Below the pieces are notes generated by a model that worked only from the letters and a program-made list of their open reading frames with translations, was not told where the DNA came from and ran no database searches. The translations under genes and the position numbers were made by a program. A stretch of 34,002 nt of DNA from Bacteroidales bacterium (GTDB lineage: Bacteria; Bacteroidota; Bacteroidia; Bacteroidales; VadinHA17): assembly GCA_023251395.1 (NCBI GenBank), contig JAHEYW010000006.1, forward strand, positions 1 through 34,002. The letters are read 5' to 3'. Below, in pieces: positions 671 through 820 of this stretch. Numbering within the stretch: the first letter of the stretch is position 1; the number at the start of each line of letters is the position of its first letter.

Positions 671-820
671 TTAATTCTACTTCGACAGATTAGAAAAATC
701 AACCTGTTTTTACCTTAATCCCTAAAGGGAACAGGTTGATTTTTCAGCTTGCTCCCTTTAGGGTCGGTACAAACAAGCTGAAAAATCAGATTAAAAAGCA
801 ATCTGTCAAAGTAGAGTTAA
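671..820. repeat. Nested palindromic element with alternative stems (foldback, about 150 bp)
   Basis: The outer arms 671-691 and 800-820 are inverted repeats of 21 bases with two mismatches. Inside, 694-708 pairs perfectly with 730-744 (stem AAAAATCAACCTGTT), enclosing TCCCTAAAGGGA at 719-730. A second stem pairs 738-751 with 774-787 (GATTTTTCAGCTTG). The two inner stems share bases 738-744, so they cannot both form completely. CCCTAAAGGG at 720-729 is also the exact reverse complement of CCCTTTAGGG at 754-763. No open reading frame of note lies inside. It may be a MITE or REP-type repeat, or an RNA structure upstream of the aminotransferase. The rest of the gap 597-987 is AT-rich and shows nothing else I can name. 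Confidence 0.7.

Follow-up and report, generated by a model that had tools for sequence, protein, structure and literature searches.

MITEs of prokaryotes have been described as A+T-rich, intergenic, derived from ISs and strongly foldback (PMC10969869). The element described here lies in a 34,002-bp stretch of a Bacteroidales contig (the window) and is almost certainly a non-autonomous MITE of an IS701-family element, presumably mobilized in trans. It resembles other IS-derived MITEs (PMC10969869), including MITEAba12 (PMC6382973) and BrickBuilt of Porphyromonas gingivalis (PMC4596501), in being short, intergenic, A+T-rich and free of ORFs, and in combining terminal inverted repeats (TIRs) common to an autonomous IS with short target duplications and a strong foldback. 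It differs from those elements in having an IS701-family parent and an interior made of a covarying, inverted hairpin pair that the parent lacks. With IS701-family ISs (NCBIfam NF033540) it shares 17-bp ends and a 4-bp YTAR-like target; however, it carries no transposase, and the ends alone are held in common. REP, BIME and REPIN sequences with RAYT (PMC3733652; PMC6006769) are likewise inverted pairs of short imperfect palindromes found in multiple intergenic copies, whereas the window element is unlinked to RAYT genes and has DDE-type TIRs and target duplications at its borders. A description of an IS701 MITE was not found in a limited literature search.

Structure and folding of the element

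The element occupies the spacer between a divergent class II aldolase gene and the gene for a D-amino-acid aminotransferase, lying 168 bp before the aminotransferase ORF. Its mobile unit is 142 bp long (675-816), to which the 4-bp TTAA target duplication is added. In relatives where both genes were seen, the aldolase and aminotransferase matches were on separate contigs, so that there is no orthologous spacer for an empty-site comparison. The features are as follows.

671-691 and 800-820: outer repeat, 19 of 21 positions identical, the remaining two being G-U pairs in RNA
671-674, no strand: left target-site duplication TTAA, assigned from the sequence, the 4-bp duplications of the family and the autonomous IS copies, which are likewise flanked by TTAA
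675-691, plus strand: left terminal inverted repeat TTCTACTTCGACAGATT, one mismatch to the IS701-type IS end TTCTACTTTGACAGATT
693-745, no strand: hairpin A, arms 693-708 and 730-745 (16 bp, 100% complementary), loop holding CCCTAAAGGG at 720-729
693-701, plus strand: first of two 9-bp direct repeats GAAAAATCA that bracket the hairpin pair
737-788, no strand: hairpin B, arms 737-751 and 774-788 (15 bp, 100% complementary), loop holding CCCTTTAGGG at 754-763
737-745: TGATTTTTC, the 9 bases common to stems A and B
780-788, plus strand: second 9-bp direct repeat GAAAAATCA
800-816, minus strand: right terminal inverted repeat, read on that strand as CTCTACTTTGACAGATT, one mismatch to the IS end
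817-820, no strand: right target-site duplication TTAA

A preliminary description of this DNA had reported a foldback at 671-820, which proved to be real and in that place, with slight corrections to its coordinates. The outer 21-base inverted repeat is present, and the two inner hairpins pair perfectly as described, over 16 and 15 bp rather than 15 and 14; the stems do share bases, with the common stretch running from 737 to 745 rather than from 738 to 744. The reverse complementarity of the two loop motifs (CCCTAAAGGG and CCCTTTAGGG) was also found, and hairpin B as a whole is a diverged inverted copy of hairpin A, the two being homologous as reverse complements. Mutual exclusion of the inner stems holds for full A against full B, although a shortened B is compatible with A. 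There is in addition a third, long-range pairing, of 720-739 with 744-763 (85% complementary).

When 671-820 was folded, as had been proposed, it was far more stable than its shuffles (-62.7 versus -27.5 +/- 3.4 kcal/mol; z = -10.5; 0 of 200). With RNA parameters, the long-range pairing is the minimum-free-energy fold at -61.9, compared with -55.5 when A and -55.3 when B is forced. With DNA parameters, stem A is best at -32.9, followed by B at -31.4 and the long-range pairing at -27.4.

Copies in the genome and the genus

The proposed search of the genome and its relatives with 671-820 revealed a multi-copy sequence, represented in its own genome by four full copies, one partial copy and about five short ones (55-60 bp). 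A DNA search of the genus detected related sequence in 15 of its 62 genomes. Five genomes (G035, G039, G041, G053 and G060) each had at least 10 matches, those in G041 being to hairpin B only. Copies in G039 are up to 98.6% alike and lie at different places beside different genes. None of the 29 copies examined was inside an ORF, which makes the element intergenic, and copies have unrelated genes as neighbors, in every orientation encountered. In the element's own genome, all good copies of the hairpin core are enclosed by a pair of IS701 TIRs.

The short copies in this genome consist of the outer repeat with a single GAAAAATCA in the loop. Where the short form passes directly from ATTAGAAAAATCA into TATTAAAAGG, the long form continues from ATTAGAAAAATCA through the hairpins, which end in GAAAAATCA, and then into GATTAAAAAG. 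The short-form join thus falls at the 9-bp direct repeat, and the short copies correspond to the loss of everything between the two GAAAAATCA. Loss is more likely than insertion, because these arms are also found with the hairpin elsewhere (L110 and L112-L121); it would most likely have occurred by slippage between the two direct repeats at the hairpin base.

Parent element and target-site duplications

When the family was searched with the outer repeat, two pairs of oppositely oriented ends about 1.5 kb apart came to light, G059:C180 and G055:C49. Each delimits 1,498 bp with TTAA on either side, has the same 17-bp TIRs as the MITE (TTCTACTTTGACAGATT; perfect in G059:C180) and encloses a single ORF, of 446 aa in G059:C180 and 441 aa in G055:C49. 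The two transposases match the IS701 model NF033540 at 242 and 248 bits (curated cut-off 150; 1e-71 and 2e-73), and both match Pfam DDE_5 (166-167 bits, 1e-48). A further end pair, 1,508 bp apart, occurs in G067. The autonomous IS comes from sister genomes within the genus, and a DDE_5 gene was not detected in the element's own genome (G000), nor in G014, G035, G053 or G049. The own genome, which is 91% complete, provisionally seems to be without the transposase, and its copies are therefore probably stranded.

The part common to MITE and IS is the outer 17-19 bp, and their interiors differ. The hairpins are absent from the IS, the 5' non-coding part of which folds no better than shuffles (z +0.8). 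Since the interior is not shared, the MITE is not a simple internal deletion of the IS found.

Identical 4-bp flanks were present in 32 of the 59 elements with both ends. Fifteen of these 32 were sequences other than TTAA (CTAA, ATAA, TTAG, TTAT, CTAT and CTAG), against an expectation of 1.87, the mean after right flanks were shuffled among elements in 10,000 rounds (0 of 10,000). The flanks have a central TA in 51 of 59 cases on the left and 48 of 59 on the right. The TTAA of the window copy is palindromic, and a duplication there is indistinguishable from an extended TIR; the non-palindromic duplications come from other copies. Members of the IS701 family have been reported with 4- or 5-bp duplications (PMC8024623), and the 4-bp duplications read from the flanks here fit that range.

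The ends of the element are shown to be those of an IS701-family IS, and the element itself belongs to a large set of copies that are dispersed between genes and have 4-bp duplications. The MITE insertion that the preliminary description had offered as one option is borne out by its multiple intergenic copies, by TIRs matching those of an autonomous IS701-family element and by 4-bp target duplications, in a unit of 142 bp without a transposase gene. Under this reading, an IS701-type transposase acting in trans would bind the two TIRs and insert the unit into the aldolase/aminotransferase spacer at an A+T-rich, YTAR-like site, and filling of the staggered cut would generate the TTAA duplication. 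The interior is a foldback module that pairs one hairpin with a diverged, inverted duplicate of it.

Conservation of the inner stems

Covariation, for which a search had also been advised, is present in stems A and B across the copies. Changes on both sides were found in 8 of the 16 pairs of stem A (35 copies), and stem A together with the outer repeat had 12 covarying pairs versus 6.3 +/- 1.6 in shuffles (0 of 500), with a covariation score of 0.129 versus 0.060. For stem B, both-side changes in 5 of 11 pairs and a score of 0.258 versus 0.066 in shuffles (0 of 500) were obtained on hand-anchored arms, and this count leans somewhat towards structure. MAFFT had moved the right arm by one base in G035 and G039; the anchors were conserved A/T runs rather than pairing, some of the arms were placed by eye, and merging of duplicates left 17 distinct rows.

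The long-range pairing of 720-739 with 744-763 was rejected as a functional fold: it has the best RNA energy, but 75% of its cells are paired and its covarying pairs are below the shuffles in number.

Judging from the aligned copies, pairing of both inner stems is maintained, by selection or by self-correction of the palindrome. Covariation is no proof of RNA function, because one arm of an imperfect DNA palindrome can be corrected to match the other, and such arm-against-arm repair (quasi-palindrome correction) would most likely explain why pairing is kept in all lineages. A second likely reason would be that a compact foldback holds the two TIRs close to each other, while a transcript that needs the fold would be a less likely one. 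The two folds between which a switch had been suggested are both real in the family, since their stems are conserved with covariation, but functional switching found no support. Most likely, the hairpins have no function for the host.

Alternative explanations

A pair of homologous hairpins in inverted orientation, some 40-50 nt apart and in multiple intergenic copies, is also what a RAYT-associated REP doublet (BIME or REPIN) would look like, its two inverted palindromes being moved by a Y1 HUH transposase. Hairpins A and B do form a pair of inverted imperfect palindromes of the REP/BIME type, Y1_Tnp/RAYT genes are present in the genus, and the hairpin is also found singly, within different TIRs in G041 (L112-L121) and apparently lacking those of the element at L110 and L129. 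However, none of 33 Y1_Tnp loci (in 10 of 11 genomes searched) had either the CCCTTTAGGGTCGGGG hairpin core, with three mismatches allowed, or the TIR in its flanks within about 1.5 kb, and the five Y1_Tnp loci in the element's own genome adjoin other repeats. The confinement of all good core copies in that genome to IS701 TIR pairs also argues against this origin, as do the 17-bp TIRs and 4-bp duplications, which are not REP features. The earlier suggestion of a REP insertion therefore fails in the strict RAYT sense; RAYT as mover of the whole unit is largely refuted, and we consider a RAYT-associated doublet improbable.

The strong alternative folds, 168 bp before the aminotransferase ORF, would also suit the structured leader proposed earlier, or an attenuator, as an RNA that serves the aminotransferase or the divergent aldolase and switches between two folds. 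The copies keep their pairing and the stems covary, as such an RNA would require, though palindromic DNA can keep its pairing without RNA function. Of 16 relatives in which the flanks of the aminotransferase homologue were read, none had a TIR or an intact hairpin core close to that gene (L205 and L206, which are element loci, being excluded); the single core match with three mismatches among these 16 loci was at L202. Copies of the element adjoin unrelated genes in every orientation encountered, an Rfam scan gave no credible match (the best were eukaryotic miRNA models that fell far short of their gathering scores), and a terminator scan gave no terminator-like site. We abandon the leader proposal as highly improbable. 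A MITE that was secondarily co-opted, with hairpins or ends that affect expression of flanking genes or protect DNA locally, is a different matter, and one that we judge unlikely. Among 19 copies with both neighbors called, the gene gaps were tandem in 10 cases, divergent in nine and convergent in none, which places copies in promoter-bearing gaps, but the ORF calls are crude and the sample is small. Promoter-bearing gaps are, moreover, longer and hence bigger insertion targets anyway, and the exact insertion site is not conserved. An IS701-type MITE remains our preferred reading of 671-820.

The five Y1_Tnp (RAYT-like) genes of the element's own genome (L030-L034) adjoin short repeats, for example GCCGTTGGCTTTAGCC and CCTCGTAGAGG, that are apparently separate REP families. 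One Y1_Tnp copy has an in-frame stop.

Other interiors within the same ends

In an exact scan of GTDB species genomes for the 17-bp end, many of the matches listed were in Bacteroidota. They include short elements with 4-bp duplications and quite different interiors (L246, L255, L219, L236, L281, L274, L220, L248 and L271). Thirteen folded interiors besides that of the window had z values from -1.9 to -11.0; these were chosen by eye and compared with 60 shuffles each, and the strong folding of other interiors within the same TIRs is a lead, not a measurement. One speculative and, in our estimate, rather doubtful extension is that IS701-type ends form a general shell in which foldback DNA has been captured repeatedly, the interior being an active part of the transposition unit. 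Its basis would be the occurrence of the same TIRs and target duplications around unrelated multi-palindrome interiors, some of which resemble local dispersed repeats, together with the presence of the hairpin module within other TIRs. The interior might then bring the two ends together, or be a cruciform or single-strand substrate, instead of being a passenger.

Several related arrangements were observed. In G041 and G032 (L112-L121 and L124), hairpin B lies inside a repeated element of roughly 195 bp with other ends (TTGAGTCCACTCCGA...), and the hairpin module is common to two MITE-like backgrounds. In G053 and G019 (L106, L107 and L126), the CCCTTTAGGG loop of hairpin B contains insertions of other foldback repeats, such as CATAGCCGTCAA...TTGACGGCTATGCC, so that palindromes are nested in palindromes. 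In G035 (L075, L078, L082, L083, L084 and L162), five copies have a 62-bp sequence, TCTCTTATGTAAC...GCTGAAGGA, directly against their left end; at one of these copies (C48), the other side has an ORF beginning MGKSKTKKAEVKKISQLTVINPTAAGIDVSDTE, which appears to resemble an IS110-type transposase, and the arrangement possibly reflects an IS110-type element that targets the MITE repeat. On a Methylococcales MAG contig labelled gammaproteobacterium (L257, 3424-3691), the interior between the same TIRs (2 and 0 mismatches) folds strongly (z -11), and the 4-bp flanks do not match.

Implications

For an undescribed MITE family of Bacteroidota, the analysis supplies the parent transposon, the target site and a record of copy number, and the tempting but mistaken reading of its foldback as a riboswitch is removed. 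If the wider pattern holds, with one set of TIRs around many foldback interiors, these elements would constitute a natural experiment on the reasons for the frequent occurrence of palindromic interiors in bacterial MITEs.
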